DNA of 64,000 bases from Chlorobaculum parvum NCIB 8327. Lineage in GTDB: Bacteria; Bacteroidota; Chlorobiia; Chlorobiales; Chlorobiaceae. Both the position numbers and the translations under genes were made by a program. Below, piece by piece: positions 54,391-61,940 of this stretch. The stretch is from positions 232,001 to 296,000 of the forward strand of contig NC_011027.1 in the NCBI RefSeq assembly GCF_000020505.1. The letters run 5' to 3'. Numbering within the stretch: position 1 is the first letter of the stretch; each line of letters starts with the position of its first letter. The notes under the pieces were generated by a model. It worked only from the letters and a program-made list of their open reading frames with translations, did not search any database and was not told the DNA's origin.

Positions 54391-55197
54391 TCAGGCCGTA
54401 AAGCGCGTGCCGTCGATGACCGGTCCTTCGCGGCAGAGCAGGATGCTCTCTTTCTCGCCATCGGCGTTCTTGAGCTCGACCATGCAGCCATAGCAGATGC
54501 CGATGCCGCAGCCCATGATCGACTCCAACGACAGTTCACAGGCAAGGCCGCGCTCCTTGCAGAAATTGGCCAGTGCCTTGAGCATCGGGTTGGGGCCGCA
54601 GGCGAAGACCTTGATACGCTGGCCATCCGTTTCTGTGGCAAGGTGACGATCGAGCAACTGCACGACGTTGCCGTGGAATCCCTCCGAGCCGTCGTCGGTC
54701 GCGGTGCTGACGTTCGAGAGCCCGGCAGTCAAAAGGTCGGTGCGGCTCCGGCCGCCGACCAGATTGGCGAATGGAGTCCCCTGGGCGGCGAGCGTTGTTT
54801 CGAGGAAGCGCATCGGCGCGGTGCCAATGCCGCCCGAAACGAGCAGCGCAGTATCGAACTCGCCGGGGTCGGTGCCGAAGGCGTTGCCGAGCGGGCCGAG
54901 CACCAGCAGGTTGTCGCCGCAGGAGGCTTCGCAGAGCATCGCCGTGCCGCGTCCGACGTTTTTCACCATCACCTCGATCGTTTCACCCTCAACGTTGTGG
55001 ATGCAGAACGGCCGACGGAGCAACGGCTGATCCGACGAGCTGACCTTGATGTTCACGAAGTTTCCCGGCCGGGCGGTCGCGGCGATTTCCGGGCAGGGCA
55101 TGGAGATGATCGAGACATCCTGGCCTGCCGGACGAATGCCGGTAACGTGCGATTTGAGGTCGCGGATGGTGCTGGACTGAAGCATGGCTGCAAGCAT
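54391..55197 (-). CDS. pyrK: Dihydroorotate dehydrogenase electron-transfer subunit
   Basis: A 268-residue PyrK. The FAD-binding ferredoxin-reductase domain (about 10-105, RPFCIHNVEG) is followed by the NAD-binding domain (LLVSGGIGTAPM, then VFACGPNPMLKAL) and the C-terminal [2Fe-2S] motif CGIGICYGC with a fourth cysteine in LLCREGPV. It carries electrons from PyrD-B to NAD+ in pyrimidine synthesis. The first ATG (55197) gives four extra residues before MLQSSTIRD; either may be used. It lies upstream of ssb on the minus strand, divergent from the first ArsA-like gene. Confidence 0.92.
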   Translation of the reverse strand: MLAAMLQSSTIRDLKSHVTGIRPAGQDVSIISMPCPEIAATARPGNFVNIKVSSSDQPLLRRPFCIHNVEGETIEVMVKNVGRGTAMLCEASCGDNLLVLGPLGNAFGTDPGEFDTALLVSGGIGTAPMRFLETTLAAQGTPFANLVGGRSRTDLLTAGLSNVSTATDDGSEGFHGNVVQLLDRHLATETDGQRIKVFACGPNPMLKALANFCKERGLACELSLESIMGCGIGICYGCMVELKNADGEKESILLCREGPVIDGTRFTA

Positions 55198-55433: not shown

Positions 55434-56651
55434 ATGCGTATATTAACTTTTACTGGTAAAGGTGGTGTGGGAAAGACAAGCGTCTCGGCCGCCACGGCAG
55501 TCCGTCTTTCCGAGATGGGACATCGCACGCTGGTGCTTTCGACCGACCCTGCCCACAGCCTTTCAGACTCTTTCAACCTTCAACTTGGCGCTGAGCCGAC
55601 CAAGATCAAGGAAAACCTTCACGCCATCGAGGTAAACCCTTACGTTGACCTCAAGGAGAACTGGCATTCGGTACAGAAGTACTACACTCGCGTTTTCATG
55701 GCTCAGGGCGTCTCTGGCGTCATGGCTGACGAAATGACGATTCTTCCCGGCATGGAAGAGCTCTTCTCCCTGCTCAGAATCAAACGCTACAAATCCACCG
55801 GCCTGTACGATGCGCTCGTGCTCGATACGGCTCCGACCGGCGAAACCCTTCGCCTGCTCTCGCTTCCCGATACCCTTTCATGGGGCATGAAGGCGGTGAA
55901 AAACGTCAATAAATATATTGTTCGTCCGCTCAGCAAGCCGCTGTCCAAAATGTCGGACAAAATTGCCTACTACATTCCGCCGGAAGACGCTATCGAATCT
56001 GTCGATCAGGTGTTCGACGAACTCGAAGACATTCGGGATATTCTGACCGACAACGTCAAGTCGACCGTCAGGCTGGTTATGAACGCCGAGAAAATGTCGA
56101 TCAAGGAGACCATGCGCGCCCTGACCTACCTGAACCTCTATGGCTTCAAGGTCGATATGGTGCTGGTCAACAAGCTGCTCGACGCACAGGAGAACAGCGG
56201 TTACCTCGAAAAGTGGAAAGGCATCCAGCAAAAATATCTTGGCGAGATCGAAGAGGGCTTTTCGCCGCTTCCGGTCAAAAAGCTGAAGATGTATGATCAG
56301 GAGATCGTCGGCGTCAAATCGCTCGAAGTGTTTGCCCATGATATTTATGGTGACACCGATCCATCCGATATGATGTATGACGAGCCGCCGATCAAGTTTG
56401 TTCGCAAGGGCGATATCTATGAAGTTCAGCTCAAGCTCATGTTTGCCAACCCGGTCGATATCGATGTGTGGGTTACCGGTGACGAGCTGTTTGTCCAGAT
56501 TGGCAACCAGCGCAAGATCATTACGCTTCCGGTCAGCCTTACCGGTCTGGAACCCGGCGATGCCGTCTTCCGTGACAAGTGGCTGCACATTCCCTTCGAT
56601 CTCGAAAAGCAGGGCCAGCATCACCGTACCAGAGAGTTTAACAAAGCTTAA
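55434..56651 (+). CDS. ArsA/Get3-family ATPase with HSP20-like C-terminus (upstream copy)
   Basis: A 405-residue P-loop ATPase. The Walker A motif [11 protein letters not shown] is at 8-18, switch I is STDPAHSLSDSF, and switch II is DTAPTGETLRLL. The C-terminal 80 residues (from about 320: YEVQLKLMFANPVDIDVWV, then LFVQIGNQRKIITLP) form an alpha-crystallin/HSP20-like domain, a known accessory domain of ArsA relatives (ArsA_HSP20). There is no cysteine in the whole protein, so it cannot bind arsenite through thiols as ArsA pumps do. Get3 relatives deliver tail-anchored membrane proteins. Directly downstream are csmC and csmA, so a role in chlorosome protein handling is inferred. It diverges from pyrK. 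Confidence 0.85.
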   Translation: MRILTFTGKGGVGKTSVSAATAVRLSEMGHRTLVLSTDPAHSLSDSFNLQLGAEPTKIKENLHAIEVNPYVDLKENWHSVQKYYTRVFMAQGVSGVMADEMTILPGMEELFSLLRIKRYKSTGLYDALVLDTAPTGETLRLLSLPDTLSWGMKAVKNVNKYIVRPLSKPLSKMSDKIAYYIPPEDAIESVDQVFDELEDIRDILTDNVKSTVRLVMNAEKMSIKETMRALTYLNLYGFKVDMVLVNKLLDAQENSGYLEKWKGIQQKYLGEIEEGFSPLPVKKLKMYDQEIVGVKSLEVFAHDIYGDTDPSDMMYDEPPIKFVRKGDIYEVQLKLMFANPVDIDVWVTGDELFVQIGNQRKIITLPVSLTGLEPGDAVFRDKWLHIPFDLEKQGQHHRTREFNKA

Positions 56652-56767
56652 TGTGGCACGGATTCCTGTTTGAGCAAGGGCGATTTTTTTATTAGTTTCG
56701 TTCAAAGTCGTTTTACACATAACAGTAACTCCGGGCTGCCAAGGCGGTCGGATTAAAGGAGGACATA

Positions 56768-57187
56768 ATGTCAGAATCGTATCAGAAACTTCGCAAGGAT
56801 TTTAAAGACCTCGATTTCACCGACAGGCTCACCTTTCTTGCCGAAAGCGTGCTTCTGACCGGTCAGAGCGCCATCGTTGGCGGTCTTGAGGTCGCGGGCA
56901 GCGTTGTTGAGACGGTTGCAGGGACGGTCGGTTCGCTGGTCGATGCCTCGGGTATCGGCAACATGCTCGGTGGTTCGGGCGGCGTAGTAGGCGAGACTAT
57001 CGATCGTGTCGCGATCACCGTCAAAGACGTATCCCGCTCGGCAGGTGATCTCTACAATGACGCGGTAAGGAACGTCGAAAACGTTACCGGCAACGCTGCC
57101 AAGGCAGTTGGTGACGCGGGCTCTTCGGCTTCCGATGCGGTCAAGAACATCGCCGGTTCGTTCCAGAAAACCACCGGAAAGAAGTAA
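56768..57187 (+). CDS. csmC: Chlorosome envelope protein CsmC
   Basis: A 139-residue chlorosome envelope protein. An N-terminal amphipathic segment ([20 protein letters not shown]) precedes a glycine/valine/serine-rich middle ([20 protein letters not shown], residues about 38-57) and a repetitive, weakly amphipathic C-terminal part with [20 protein letters not shown]. CsmC lies in the lipid monolayer around the bacteriochlorophyll core of the chlorosome. The ribosome site AAAGGAGG is ideally placed, indicating high expression. csmA follows after 154 bases. As I recall, the two genes are co-transcribed, with csmA also made separately. Confidence 0.9.
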
Positions 57188-57202
57188 GGTTTTTTCGTCG
57201 GC

Positions 57203-57228
57203 CCTGCCCGGCCGGGACGGAAGGCAGG
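57203..57228 (+). repeat. Hairpin between csmC and csmA
   Basis: CCTGCC (57203-57208) pairs with GGCAGG (57223-57228) around a CGGCCGGGACGGAA loop. No T tract follows. It may act as a processing or stability element, or a partial terminator, that lets csmA mRNA be more abundant than csmC. Confidence 0.45.
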
Positions 57229-57341
57229 AGGGCGCTTAAAATCTTTTAATTTGTGTTTTTTCGTTTATTCGCTTATTTTTGTCTTAAGTCTCATTTTTGA
57301 ATGTTGTTTTTTCTGTCAATTAAATTCCAAAAGGAGGAGTT

Positions 57342-57581
57342 ATGAGTGGAGGAGGCGTCTTTACTGACATCTTAGCCGCCGCAGGCCGCATTTTCGAAGT
57401 TATGGTCGAGGGTCACTGGGAGACCGTCGGCATGCTTTTTGATTCTCTGGGCAAAGGCACCATGAGGATCAACCGCAATGCCTATGGTTCCATGGGTGGT
57501 GGTAGCCTTCGTGGTTCTTCACCTGAGGTTTCCGGCTATGCTGTTCCGACCAAAGAAGTTGAATCGAAGTTTGCCAAATAA
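57342..57581 (+). CDS. csmA: Chlorosome baseplate protein CsmA (pre-protein)
   Basis: A 79-residue pre-protein. Mature CsmA is 59 residues, and the 20-residue C-terminal extension (from [10 protein letters not shown] to the end) is removed during assembly. His25 in GHWE is the ligand of the baseplate bacteriochlorophyll a. CsmA forms the paracrystalline baseplate that passes energy from the chlorosome to the FMO protein and reaction centre. The ribosome site AAAGGAGG sits 6 bases before the start, and the upstream 150 bases are very AT-rich and probably hold a strong promoter. The terminator at 57604-57641 follows. Confidence 0.96.
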
Positions 57582-57603
57582 GCAAACCGTTCAGCAAGAT
57601 TCT

Positions 57604-57641
57604 AAAAGCAGTGACAGGTTTTGCACCGTCACTGCTTTTTT
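57604..57641 (+). terminator. Terminator after csmA
   Basis: AAAAGCAGTGAC pairs perfectly with GTCACTGCTTTT around a 12-base loop, followed by T6 in total. It closes the csmCA unit. Confidence 0.93.
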
Positions 57642-57830
57642 AGTTTTATGCCGTTCCCGCATCGATTGCCTGCCTTTTGCCCGTTGCCACCTCTTCATTT
57701 CATGCTCCCAGATTTCTTCGGTCGCTTAATCACGGTTCAGCGTTACGTAATTTATTTTTGTTTTCATATTTTGTTGGTTCGACTATCGATGATGAACGGA
57801 TTTCAACGGTAACGTGACCGGAAGCGGTAA
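57642..57830. other. AT-rich spacer after csmA
   Basis: The remaining gap to the acidic protein is T-rich, with no frame worth reporting. It presumably holds the promoter for the next gene (AT-rich around 57740-57780). Confidence 0.35.
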
Positions 57831-60086
57831 ATGGCTAATTTTTCTCTTTATATCTCGGGACAGACTGAACTGGGTGATGTTGCTGAGTTTTTCCAGAAAC
57901 GCCTGATTGGCGAAGGTGAAACTCCCATCGCATTTTTTGACGGCGTTTTTTACGAATCTCATCAGGAGCGGGTAGGCAATATTGTCTATCAGGATTATCT
58001 GATCTTTTCTGACAAGGCGCTCTACCTCTGGGCGAGAGGGGCTTCGAAAGATTATCTCGATCGCTTCACGCTCGGCGCTGTATCGGTGAACAGCCGAAAC
58101 AAGGATAGCGCGTTCGCGACCATGAACCTCAAAATACGGCGCGAGGGCAAAGAGCCGGTGTTCGTGATTTTCGACATGGTCGAAATTCGTGAAGCAGAAA
58201 TGGTCATCAAGCTTCAAACCGCCGTCGAATCAACCATAGAGGACTATCTCGGAGTCAATTACCGTCAGGAGATCCCTCCGGATGCAGCCGGCAGGATTCT
58301 TCAGGCTGCTCGGGCCGTCTGCCCGCCAAGGAACATCTCACTGCCTCTGGAGTCGCCTGAGGCGCCGCAGATGCCTGTCCCTGATGCCGGCATTGGTTAT
58401 GGCCAGGATCTGCTCGAACAGTACCGTGCCATGGGCGGACAGCCCGGTGCGCAACAGGCTCCCTCTCAGGGATCACCGTATGGCGAACGCCCGCAGGCTG
58501 GCGGAATGGGCATGCCGGGTATCGGTGCCCCACCGTTTGCTCCGCGCGGCGGGCTCGAGTCGATGCTGCCTACCGATCCAGCCTCGTTGAAGCGGATTGC
58601 CGATCAGATCAAAAATATGGTTGGTGACGCGCCGTTCAAGTTGCGTGACCAGGTGATGAAAGATCTTCAGCATGTGCCCGGTGATGTGGCTACGGTGCTG
58701 ACCGCCCTCAACGAGCTGCTGGCCAATATCGCCGGCAACCCGATGGCCGAGCGTTTCGTTATGAATGCCATCAAAACGGCTGTGGTGAACGATGGCATGA
58801 TCGGTTCTCTTGGCAAAATCATCAAAATGACCGGTTTCGGCAGCGGTGGCGGCAAAAAAAGCTCGCAGCCCGCGTCTGACGGCCCCGCAGCCGGTGATGA
58901 CCGTTCAGCTTCCAGACCGCGCAAAAGCCCGTTCGAGGAGGAACCTGACGATAACTCGTCGACGATCAGGCGTAAGAAGATCAGCGTCAAGGATGACGAA
59001 GAGAGTTCTGTTGCCGATCTTTTTGCCGGGAGCGATGAGCCGATTACTTCACGTGAGGAGCGCAAGCCTGCCATTGACGATACCAGAGCCGATGGTGGCG
59101 GTCGCCGAAAGAAGCTCTCCATCAAGATGGAGGATGACAACGAGATCGCTCGCAAGCTGATGAGTTACGACGAGTCGGAGCGGGAAGCGCCGGTGTCCGA
59201 GCCTGAGCCGGTCAAGCCTGAATCTCCGGTGGCCAGTCAGCCGGTTGATAGCGGTTCAGGAGTGCGACGGAAAAAGGTCGCCATCAAAGCCGAAGAGGGG
59301 AGCGGCGCACGCGCTGATGTTGCACAAAAGCTGATGAGCTACGATGAAACAACGCGAGGCGCGATCAATACACTCTCAAAATCCGATGAGCCGAAAGCCG
59401 AAACGGCGCCCGAGCTTGAGCCGGAAAAGCCGGTAAGGAAAAAGATCCAGATCGTCGCAGCCGAAGAGTCCGAATCGGACGTCGTTTCTGCATCGGAGCC
59501 AGAGCCGGAAGAGGATATCCCGGTGATTGAGATGGCTGCAATTGAAGCTGCATTGGAGCTGGAGGCTGAATCTGGCATCGAGCCAGAGTTGGCTGAGGCA
59601 TCAGTTCCCGAACCCGAACCGGAAATCCCGGTGAGGAAAAAGCTTCAGGTTGTAGCATCCGATGAGCCGAATGTTGAGGCCGAGCCTGAACCGGAAGCGC
59701 CCGAGACAAAGAAGGTGCAGGTTGTTGCATCGGAGGAATCGGCAACTGAGCTCAAACCCGAAGTCGCATCAGAGTCCGAACCGGAGGAGGAGGCTGCATC
59801 TGAGGCATCGGCCAGTGATGTTGTTGCGAATGAAGCTGAGCCGGCAATTGCATCAGTTTCTGAAACATCGTCCGAATCTGAAGAGATTACTATTTCCGAA
59901 GAGGCGCTTTTTGTCGCTCTTGGCGAGGAACCGAAAGCAGAAAAGCGTTCGTCCGGCACGAACGAGTACATGACCATAGAATCTGACGAGCCGGAGAAAA
60001 AAATAGCAAGCGTGAAACCCACCGAACAGCAACGTCGTCCTTCTGGCAAGGCTGGCCGGAGCAAACGGCGGGGGAGAAAAGTCTGA
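57831..60086 (+). CDS. Large acidic protein with PH-like N-terminus and repeated basic motif
   Basis: A 751-residue protein with no signal peptide and no membrane helix. Residues about 20-145 resemble a bacterial PH-like domain (PIAFFDGVFYESHQERVGNI, then IVYQDYLIFSDKALYLWARG and MNLKIRREG). A proline/glycine-rich stretch (about 170-245) is followed by a helical segment (about 250-340) and a long acidic low-complexity tail. The tail carries at least six copies of a basic-hydrophobic element (RRKKISVK, RRKKLSIK, RRKKVAIK, RKKIQIVA, RKKLQVVA, KKVQVVA) separated by Glu/Pro/Ser-rich spacers, plus LMSYDE twice. It is not a family I recognise. It sits between csmA and the second ArsA-like ATPase on the same strand. 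Confidence 0.75.
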   Translation: MANFSLYISGQTELGDVAEFFQKRLIGEGETPIAFFDGVFYESHQERVGNIVYQDYLIFSDKALYLWARGASKDYLDRFTLGAVSVNSRNKDSAFATMNLKIRREGKEPVFVIFDMVEIREAEMVIKLQTAVESTIEDYLGVNYRQEIPPDAAGRILQAARAVCPPRNISLPLESPEAPQMPVPDAGIGYGQDLLEQYRAMGGQPGAQQAPSQGSPYGERPQAGGMGMPGIGAPPFAPRGGLESMLPTDPASLKRIADQIKNMVGDAPFKLRDQVMKDLQHVPGDVATVLTALNELLANIAGNPMAERFVMNAIKTAVVNDGMIGSLGKIIKMTGFGSGGGKKSSQPASDGPAAGDDRSASRPRKSPFEEEPDDNSSTIRRKKISVKDDEESSVADLFAGSDEPITSREERKPAIDDTRADGGGRRKKLSIKMEDDNEIARKLMSYDESEREAPVSEPEPVKPESPVASQPVDSGSGVRRKKVAIKAEEGSGARADVAQKLMSYDETTRGAINTLSKSDEPKAETAPELEPEKPVRKKIQIVAAEESESDVVSASEPEPEEDIPVIEMAAIEAALELEAESGIEPELAEASVPEPEPEIPVRKKLQVVASDEPNVEAEPEPEAPETKKVQVVASEESATELKPEVASESEPEEEAASEASASDVVANEAEPAIASVSETSSESEEITISEEALFVALGEEPKAEKRSSGTNEYMTIESDEPEKKIASVKPTEQQRRPSGKAGRSKRRGRKV

Positions 60087-60153
60087 CGGCCAAAAGCCGA
60101 CGGGAGAAAGACATTCAGTTTAAGTCAAGTTTTCACCATAGTTTTTCAACACC

Positions 60154-61308
60154 ATGAGAATCATTCTTTACCTGGGCAAAGGCGGCGTGGGCAAGACCAC
60201 CGTTTCCGCTTCCACAGCGACAGCGATCGCTCGCAGCGGCAAGCGCGTGCTGATCATGAGTACCGATGTGGCCCACAGTCTTGCTGATGCGTTCGGCGTT
60301 GAGTTGAGCTCGACCCCTCTTGAGGTCGAGAAAAACCTTTTTGCCATGGAGGTGAACGTTCTTGCAGAAATCAGGGAAAACTGGACCGAACTGTACTCCT
60401 ACTTCTCCTCGATTCTCATGCATGACGGCGCGAACGAAATCGTCGCCGAAGAGCTTGCCATCGTGCCTGGCATGGAGGAGATGATCAGCCTTCGCTACAT
60501 CTGGAAAGCGGCCAAGTCCGGCAAGTACGATGCTGTCGTGGTTGATGCCGCTCCAACCGGCGAGACGATGCGCCTGCTCGGTATGCCGGAGTCCTACGGC
60601 TGGTACTCCGAAAAGATCGGCGGCTGGCACTCGAAAGCGATCGGTTTTGCCGCTCCGCTGCTCACCAAGTTCATGCCGAAGAAGAACATCTTCAAGCTCA
60701 TGCCCGAGGTCAACGATCACATGAAGGAGCTGCACGGTATGTTGCAGGACAAGAGCATTACGACCTTCAGGGTGGTGCTCAATCCGGAGAACATGGTTAT
60801 CAAGGAGGCTCTGCGCGTCCAGACCTACCTCAACCTGTTCGGTTACAAACTCGATGCTGCCGTGGTCAACAAGGTGCTCCCTCAGAATTCAAGCGACCCG
60901 TACCTGCAGAGCCTCATCGACCAGCAGGCCAAGTACCTCAGGGTGATCGACAACTGCTTCTATCCTGTCCCGATTTTCAAGGCCAAGCAGTCTCCCAAAG
61001 AGGTCATCAATCCCGACAGGTTGTATGATCTGAGCCAGGAGCTGTTCGATGGTCGTAATCCGATTGATGTACTCTACACCAACGATCGTACCCAGACGCT
61101 TGAGAAGATCGACGGCAAGTACGTACTCAGCCTCTACCTGCCTAACGTCGAGGTTGAAAAGCTTGCGGTCAACATCAAAGGCGACGAGTTGCTGGTCGAT
61201 ATCAACAACTTCCGCAAGAGCATCGTGCTGCCTAACGTGCTGGTTGGTCGCAAAACCGAAGGCGCCGATTTCGAGCAGGGAATGCTGAATATCACGTTCT
61301 CGAACTGA
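60154..61308 (+). CDS. ArsA/Get3-family ATPase with HSP20-like C-terminus (downstream copy)
   Basis: A 384-residue paralogue of the ATPase gene that precedes csmC. The Walker A motif [11 protein letters not shown] is at 8-18, switch I is [12 protein letters not shown] (Val replacing the Pro of DPAHS), and switch II is [12 protein letters not shown]. The C-terminal 75 residues ([36 protein letters not shown]) are again HSP20-like. Only one cysteine is present (DNCFYP), so no arsenite or CxxC zinc site exists. It may form a heterodimer with the other copy, as ArsA and Get3 work with two nucleotide sites. It ends with the terminator at 61336-61367. Confidence 0.85.
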
Positions 61309-61335
61309 TTCTTACGGAACGCTTGAGCTTTTATG

Positions 61336-61367
61336 GCGGGTCGCTTTACGGTGGCCCGCTTTTTTTG
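61336..61367 (+). terminator. Terminator after the second ATPase gene
   Basis: GCGGGTCGC pairs with GTGGCCCGC (two G-T pairs) around TTTACG, followed by T7. Confidence 0.88.
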
Positions 61368-61427: not shown

Positions 61428-61940
61428 TCAGCTTTTGAAAGAGAGCTGATCCGCAAGCCTGACCGGGACTGAATTGTCTCCGCAGGTTCTGAGCAGGTCG
61501 GCGATGGGGCAATGCAGGCGGGGATGCTGGGGATTTGCTATGTCAAGCAGCGGCACGATGACGAATTTCCGGTGGTGCATCTCGGCATGGGGAATAGAGA
61601 GCAGATCGGTTTCGATGCATCGATCGCCGTACAGCAGGATGTCGAGGTCGATGGTTCTCGGGCTCCAGCGCTGATACTCTTCGGGCCGTCCGAGGTCGCG
61701 TTCGATCGCTTTGCACGCAGTGCGCAGCCCGGCGGGGTCGAGCCCCGTTTCGATGGCTACCACGGCATTGAAATAGCGCTCCTGGTCGGGATCACCGAAT
61801 GGCTCGGTCATGTACACCCGCGATACGCCGGTCACGCTCGTCAGCTCCAGCCCTGCAAGCCGGTCGACGGCTCCCTGCAGGTAAGCGAGCCGGTCTCCGA
61901 CATTGGAGCCGATGCCGATGTACGCGGTCACCTGTGCCAT
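61428..61940 (-). CDS. folK: 6-hydroxymethyl-7,8-dihydropterin pyrophosphokinase
   Basis: A 170-residue FolK. Motifs are YIGIGSNVGDRLAYLQ at the start, the Arg/Trp/Asp-rich signature RWSPRTIDLDILLYGD, and VPLLDIANPQHPRL near the end. It transfers diphosphate from ATP to hydroxymethyl-dihydropterin in folate synthesis. folB is directly upstream on the same strand, with a 3-base gap, so the two consecutive pathway steps are translationally coupled. Confidence 0.94.
   Translation of the reverse strand: MAQVTAYIGIGSNVGDRLAYLQGAVDRLAGLELTSVTGVSRVYMTEPFGDPDQERYFNAVVAIETGLDPAGLRTACKAIERDLGRPEEYQRWSPRTIDLDILLYGDRCIETDLLSIPHAEMHHRKFVIVPLLDIANPQHPRLHCPIADLLRTCGDNSVPVRLADQLSFKS

Follow-up and report, generated by a model that had tools for sequence, protein, structure and literature searches.

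Within the 64,000 nucleotides of Chlorobaculum parvum NCIB 8327 analysed here (the window; positions 232,001 to 296,000 of NC_011027.1, the single 2,289,249 bp contig of the genome), positions 55434-61308 carry five genes on the plus strand. Two paralogous P-loop ATPases of the Get3d type, each with a C-terminal HSP20 (alpha-crystallin-like) domain, bracket the chlorosome genes csmC and csmA and a gene for a 751-amino-acid (aa) protein. The order is upstream ("up") ATPase A1, csmC, csmA, 751-aa protein and downstream ("down") ATPase A2 (Table 1). Open reading frames (ORFs) and Pfam matches agree with this arrangement as it was originally predicted from the DNA letters, and the long protein is indeed acidic, with 95 glutamate and 43 aspartate against 48 lysine residues. 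The ATPase bracket around csmA is far beyond chance, because it recurs, in two phyla, wherever an intact csmA locus was read. We suggest, with a probability of roughly 0.6, that the genes form a dedicated module for the delivery or assembly of chlorosome envelope and baseplate proteins.

Table 1. Features of the csmA cassette in C. parvum NCIB 8327 and of the related A3/csmE arrangement. Positions are those of the window, except in the last row.
Feature	Position	Strand	Evidence and remarks
Up ATPase A1	55434..56651	+	405 aa; PF02374 ArsA_ATPase E 7.7e-119, PF17886 ArsA_HSP20 E 1.6e-20
HSP20/alpha-crystallin-like C-terminal domain of A1	56412..56597	+	PF17886, residues 327-388; all-beta in model
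csmC, chlorosome envelope protein	56768..57187	+	PF11098 E 1.8e-69
csmA, baseplate protein, cassette anchor in both phyla	57342..57581	+	PF02043 E 2.9e-34
751-aa acidic protein: predicted PH-fold N-terminus, short helical region, long, probably disordered tail	57831..60086	+	no Pfam match; AlphaFold2, Foldseek
Predicted PH-fold domain of 751-aa protein (residues 1-175)	57831..58355	+	AlphaFold2 pLDDT ~94; Foldseek
Down ATPase A2, Get3d-type	60154..61308	+	384 aa; PF02374 E 4.8e-82, PF17886 E 1.8e-19
HSP20-like C-terminal domain of A2	61111..61299	+	PF17886, residues 320-382
Terminator-like hairpin after last gene	61335..61360	+	11 pairs, then TTTTTT
A3/csmE arrangement	L039:5814-11058 (genome 2135.8-2141.1 kb)	convergent	same in G015, G019, G010, G046, G049

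The evidence is comparative throughout and covers the classes Chlorobia and Chloroflexia, from two of the three phyla with chlorosomes (the third, Acidobacteriota, includes Chloracidobacterium); genomes within each phylum are not independent, so the comparison essentially spans two deep lineages. ATPases were counted by PF02374 at strict E-values, because PF17886 alone is a poor marker and matches in 8 of 14 control genomes, presumably through ordinary small heat-shock proteins. Among Chlorobia, PF02043 (CsmA or its paralogue CsmE) matches in 96 of 98 genomes. Order and orientation of the five genes are constant at the 21 complete loci read, from Chlorobiaceae to deeper families, with csmC unlabelled at some divergent loci. 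In fifteen further genomes the coordinates put csmA between an up and a down ATPase, all three sharing contig and strand, which brings the bracketed Chlorobia loci to 36. Incomplete loci occur only at contig ends (G088, G096, G016), and no intact csmA locus lacks the ATPases. Strong ATPase matches number 5-9 in each of 30 Chlorobia genomes examined, versus 1-2 in 6 of 88 other Bacteroidota drawn from the phylum. No csmA was found on plasmids. In Chlorobiaceae, csmE and a CsmB/F-like gene have a further Get3d paralogue, A3, at a distance of ~3.5-4 kb.

Some Chlorobiaceae depart from this picture in gene content. Extra A1-type ATPases occur in several genomes (L298 in G049:C7; A1-like matches in G034:C3, G059:C20 and G079:C115), and the extra copy in G049 is 86% identical and has no adjoining csmA. 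Two genomes, G038 (1.6 Mb, 96% complete) and G083 (3.3 Mb, 88%), have no recognised csmA cassette, PH protein (the 751-aa protein and its homologues) or A1/A2, possibly owing to an assembly gap or reduced chlorosomes.

The same neighbourhood recurs in Chloroflexia, where named genomes were reached through a scan with Chloroflexus malate dehydrogenase (sequence checked against PDB 1GUY). In the first nine csmA-bearing genomes (Chloroflexus, Chloroploca, Viridilinea, Oscillochloris and OHK40), csmA stands directly behind an ATPase in nine of nine cases. None of 15 other genomes, including Roseiflexus and Herpetosiphon, has csmA, and ATPases there number 0-1. Across 150 Chloroflexia genomes csmA is present in 33, and an up ATPase lies directly 5' of it in all 33 (29 loci read, 4 by coordinates). 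All 33 have 3-6 strong ATPase matches, versus 0-1 in 113 of the 117 genomes lacking csmA. The four exceptions are G332, in which an up-type ATPase runs to the contig edge where csmA would be expected, G280, which encodes a two-domain ArsA, G248 and G271. The original prediction had named an ATPase pair equally common in relatives without chlorosomes as evidence against itself. Instead, ATPase number and linkage follow csmA in both classes.

All 29 Chloroflexia loci read continue from the up ATPase and csmA into one or two PH-protein homologues. A down ATPase is present at 26 and a third, P-loop-less pseudo-ATPase at 25 of them. The pseudo-ATPase retains ArsA-like and HSP20 domains while GKGGVGKT is replaced, for example by AHHQLQQS (L227:3596-4711, with equivalents in 25 loci). 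Loci without a down ATPase are those of G106, cut by a contig end, and of G211 and G220. The latter two are putative Ca. Chloroheliales with low-scoring csmA and the order up ATPase, csmA and two PH proteins. G211 (putative Ca. Chlorohelix) also has A2-type and A6-type genes ~24 bp apart and away from csmA (C1:2702154-2704231, L342), and G220 has two ATPase matches in tandem (C305:222-2335). Linkage of csmC to csmA is specific to Chlorobia, with no csmC match among the ORFs of Chloroflexota csmA loci.

Genes such as A1 and A2 are usually annotated as arsenite export ATPases (ArsA), a function to which we give next to no credence here. Both proteins do match Pfam ArsA_ATPase, and the six ArsA homologues of C. 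tepidum have been ascribed to arsenite export (Eisen et al. 2002, cited in PMC11269200). However, A1 has no cysteine and A2 a single one, CXXC occurs in none of the up and down orthologues checked, and each ATPase has one PF02374 domain rather than the tandem pair of an ArsA pump. No arsB, arsR or arsC was seen in the flanks, which were read by eye (the neighbours are ssb, HPPK and others). True two-domain ArsA proteins exist separately in some relatives (G083, G071). The cysteine counts are as originally reported, and the exclusion of arsenite pumping by thiol ligands drawn from them is well supported. We therefore rejected ArsA as an identification. In a few Chlorobiaceae the genuine two-domain ArsA, of 600-630 aa, occurs beside the Get3d set (G083:C7, G071:C35).

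The ATPase family itself is already known as Get3d (PMC10248533). Get3d was defined in 2023 as a Get3 protein with an alpha-crystallin domain and without CXXC; it is conserved among phototrophs, and green sulfur bacteria have as many as five copies (PMC10248533). Sequence searches place A1 and A2, which are 36% identical and belong to six ArsA-type paralogues in the genome, in the Get3/ArsA family. Both combine a Get3/ArsA-type P-loop domain with a C-terminal HSP20 domain and lack CXXC, and the ArsA_ATPase and ArsA_HSP20 fusion is an architecture catalogued in Pfam. Structures were modelled as monomers, for A1 and for the N-terminal part of the 751-aa protein. In a search of the PDB with the AlphaFold model of A1 (mean pLDDT 81), Get3 structures rank at the top, with 3zq6 best by E-value. 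The model matches Nostoc Get3d 8egk (403 columns), 3igf and Arabidopsis Get3d 8elf nearly end to end, C-terminal domain included.

The catalytic core of these ATPases is intact. A1 retains the P-loop GKGGVGKT, switch I STDPAHS and switch II DTAPTGET. In an alignment of 32 homologues GKGGVGKT, D38 and D131 are invariant, as are switch I and switch II, and proteins of the A1/A2 type should therefore be working ATPases. Plant and Nostoc Get3d have been shown to hydrolyse ATP and to bind tail-anchored segments, and the nearest relatives of the plant and cyanobacterial proteins are those of green bacteria (PMC10248533). The alpha-crystallin domain of Get3d occupies the site at which Get4 binds Get3 (PMC10248533). 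The same study reports the partners of Get3d as unknown, expects them to be conserved in photosynthetic bacteria, and nowhere mentions chlorosomes (PMC10248533). No Get1, Get2, Get4 or Get5 gene was seen at the locus, and no search was aimed at these or at insertases.

The 751-aa protein had originally been treated as a bystander, a view contradicted by our analyses. It is the most csmA-specific part of the cassette and its N-terminus is predicted with high confidence to be a PH-fold domain. The model of residues 1-175 shows a seven-stranded beta sandwich capped by a C-terminal helix, and PH and PH-like domains rank best among its PDB matches (Foldseek E 1e-4 to 1e-3). No Pfam family matches the Chlorobia domain; the Chloroflexus homologue gives a weak bPH_3 match below the curated cut-off (E 0.018). 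Of 1252 ORFs in the first 20 Chloroflexota loci, a hidden Markov model built from Chlorobia alone picks out exactly 16, each of them a neighbour of csmA. Profile-profile comparison likewise connects the homologues of the two phyla (E 1.8e-13 and 3e-9). The combined family profile matches in 13 of 13 genomes with csmA and in 0 of 20 others, of which only the absences are informative because the profile was built partly from the tested genomes.

Beyond the modelled part, the protein ends in a low-complexity tail that is probably disordered, judging from composition. The tail carries six R/K-R/K-[ILV]x[ILV] motifs (G000: RRKKISVK, RRKKLSIK, RRKKVAIK, RKKIQI, RKKLQV and KKVQV). Deep Chlorobia have one basic-[ILV]x[ILV] motif, mostly near the C-terminus, and Chloroflexota homologues have RRSISVRR-like motifs. 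With the pattern fixed on a first protein set, 39 proteins fetched later contain 65 motifs against 6.3 expected from shuffles, although the 39 are related and thus do not amount to 39 independent tests. In small heat-shock proteins, [ILV]x[ILV] tails dock into the groove of the protein's own alpha-crystallin domain. The analogy suggests that the tail of the 751-aa protein may bind the HSP20 domains of the flanking ATPases.

The two ATPase positions appear to have different histories, as judged from family trees built without full-length Nostoc or plant Get3d sequences. Up ATPases of both phyla group with Chlorobia A4/A5 (support 82 in a quick and 96/91 in a careful tree), and an exclusive clade of Chlorobia A1 and Chloroflexota up ATPases is neither supported nor rejected (approximately unbiased test, p-AU 0.28). 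The Chloroflexota down ATPase is sister to Chlorobia A6 (SH-aLRT 99). Chlorobia A2 is instead sister to a Chloroflexota housekeeping copy found also in Roseiflexus and Herpetosiphon (SH-aLRT 100). Strict orthology of the whole cassette between the phyla was thus rejected, and the phrase "the same ATPase pair", used in the original prediction, does not strictly hold. Either the down position was exchanged within an inherited or transferred cassette, or it was recruited twice. In both cases a second ATPase has been retained beside csmA in both phyla.

A delivery module of this kind could work as follows. The two Get3d ATPases would capture hydrophobic envelope and baseplate proteins after translation and keep them soluble, with CsmA as the foremost client and CsmC as another in Chlorobia, both being small proteins that seek a membrane or monolayer. 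The PH protein would act as an adaptor, its PH domain touching the surface of the nascent chlorosome, the membrane next to it or some other partner. The repeated basic-[ILV]x[ILV] motifs of the disordered tail would engage the ATPases, possibly in the alpha-crystallin groove, in the manner of the IxI tails of small heat-shock proteins. Through PH domain and multivalent tail, the PH protein could bring ATPase-client complexes to the growing chlorosome, where ATP hydrolysis would release the client into the lipid monolayer. Client identity, transport direction, the contact between motif and HSP20 domain and the ligand of the PH domain are all inferred. A fuller version remains tentative and in our estimate falls somewhat short of even odds. 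It would make the cassette a dedicated ATP-driven biogenesis pathway for an organelle bounded by a lipid monolayer, in which Get3d loads CsmA and other envelope proteins and the PH protein is the Get3d partner, recruiting through multivalent motifs docked on the alpha-crystallin domains. The cassette would then, along with csmA, either be ancestral to Chlorobia and Chloroflexota or have passed between them.

Several observations weigh against a dedicated chlorosome module. The subfamily of the down ATPase differs between the phyla, hence part of the cassette was exchanged or separately assembled, and the putative Chloroheliales G211 and G220 have no down ATPase at the csmA locus. The Chlorobia paralogues A4, A5 and A6 have no csm gene as a neighbour. 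CsmA does not belong to the classical tail-anchored proteins, and operon linkage may reflect co-expression only. In the plant and Nostoc proteins, the alpha-crystallin domain is dispensable for binding tail-anchored clients and does not oligomerise (PMC10248533), which limits the support for the holdase role originally proposed for the HSP20 domain. What stands of the original prediction is a csmA-linked module of Get3-like ATPases in two phyla. The family, however, is not specific to chlorosomes, as it occurs also in cyanobacteria and plants (PMC10248533) and in Roseiflexus and Herpetosiphon.

The main rival follows from this breadth. The ATPases might serve the cytoplasmic membrane, delivering ordinary tail-anchored proteins or other membrane proteins there, and be neighbours of csmA only through a shared need in phototrophic growth. 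Such a general photosynthetic Get3d would fit the existence of Get3d and its binding of tail-anchored proteins in organisms without chlorosomes (PMC10248533), the single copies in Roseiflexus and Herpetosiphon without csmA, and the several Chlorobia paralogues away from csm genes. Nevertheless, we regard it as unlikely, because it is csmA, not phototrophy, that the number of ATPase copies and the presence of the PH protein follow. Roseiflexus is phototrophic, yet has one ATPase copy and no PH protein. The slot directly 5' of csmA is moreover kept in two phyla, including the putative type I reaction-centre Chloroflexota.

The clients might also be something other than proteins. Phospholipid-like density was seen in the hydrophobic chamber of AtGet3d (PMC10248533), and such a chamber might load lipids or bacteriochlorophyll into the envelope while the PH protein binds the lipid surface. 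PH folds often bind lipid head groups, and in a putative C. aurantiacus genome the downstream genes include two that were read by eye as bchU and bchK. Proteins, though, are as common as lipids among PH-fold ligands, the cassette has no lipid-transfer family, and Get3 relatives of known function carry protein segments, which makes lipid or pigment handling quite improbable. Still less probable is a role in spacing or segregating chlorosomes along the membrane, as in ParA/McdAB-like positioning by a deviant-Walker ATPase with a disordered adaptor. ArsA/Get3 and ParA/MinD are sister families, as reflected in weak Pfam cross-hits, and the partner proteins of ParA/McdAB-type systems resemble a disordered adaptor beside an ATPase. 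Sequence and fold nevertheless place A1 and A2 with Get3/ArsA, HSP20 domain included, and not with ParA, and no McdB-like or ParB-like family was found.

The surroundings of the cassette are unrelated to photosynthesis. On the minus strand it is flanked by a gene for HPPK (folK, 61428-61940) and by one resembling a dihydroorotate dehydrogenase electron-transfer subunit (pyrK-like, 54391-55197). The hairpin behind A2 is no more than suggestive and is compatible with the cassette ending at that point; scans for promoter-like and terminator-like sites in the region gave counts at chance level.

Chlorosome formation is explained by budding or by aggregation in rival models, and CsmA is described as the sole chlorosome protein with similarity across three phyla (PMC9316378). 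The present comparison adds other genes whose place next to csmA is kept in two phyla, which makes them strong candidates for the machinery that builds chlorosomes. It describes a previously undescribed PH-domain adaptor-like protein and points to a specific candidate client and a candidate partner for Get3d. For the three gene families concerned, whose members usually carry the annotation arsenic ATPase or hypothetical protein, Chlorobaculum tepidum offers a genetically tractable host for direct tests. If the proposed function is true, the cassette would represent a pathway that targets proteins to a lipid monolayer. In the open-access literature no paper was found linking ArsA/Get3 genes to csmA; subscription papers, among them earlier ones on the Chlorobium tepidum genome and the csm locus, were outside the search and may contain a previous remark.

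Among known systems, A1 and A2 most resemble Get3d (At1g26090; Nostoc All4481; 8elf, 8egk, 3igf), with which they share the ATPase, the C-terminal alpha-crystallin domain, the lack of CXXC and the association with phototrophs. They differ from published Get3d in their linkage to csmA, their multiple copies per genome, their intact catalytic core and their cassette with a PH-domain protein. With Get3/TRC40 of the GET pathway they share the ATPase fold and the conserved P-loop and switch motifs, but they lack the zinc-binding CXXC and have an additional alpha-crystallin domain. The arsenite pump ArsA shares PF02374, whereas A1 and A2 have no cysteine ligands, a single domain and no ars operon. 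The PH protein resembles bacterial PH-domain proteins (Pfam bPH families) in the predicted fold of its N-terminal domain. Unlike these, it is fused to a motif-rich, probably disordered tail and was found only with csmA in the genomes tested. CsmA and CsmC are neighbours and presumed clients, to which the cassette adds two conserved csmA neighbours that are not necessarily envelope components themselves.

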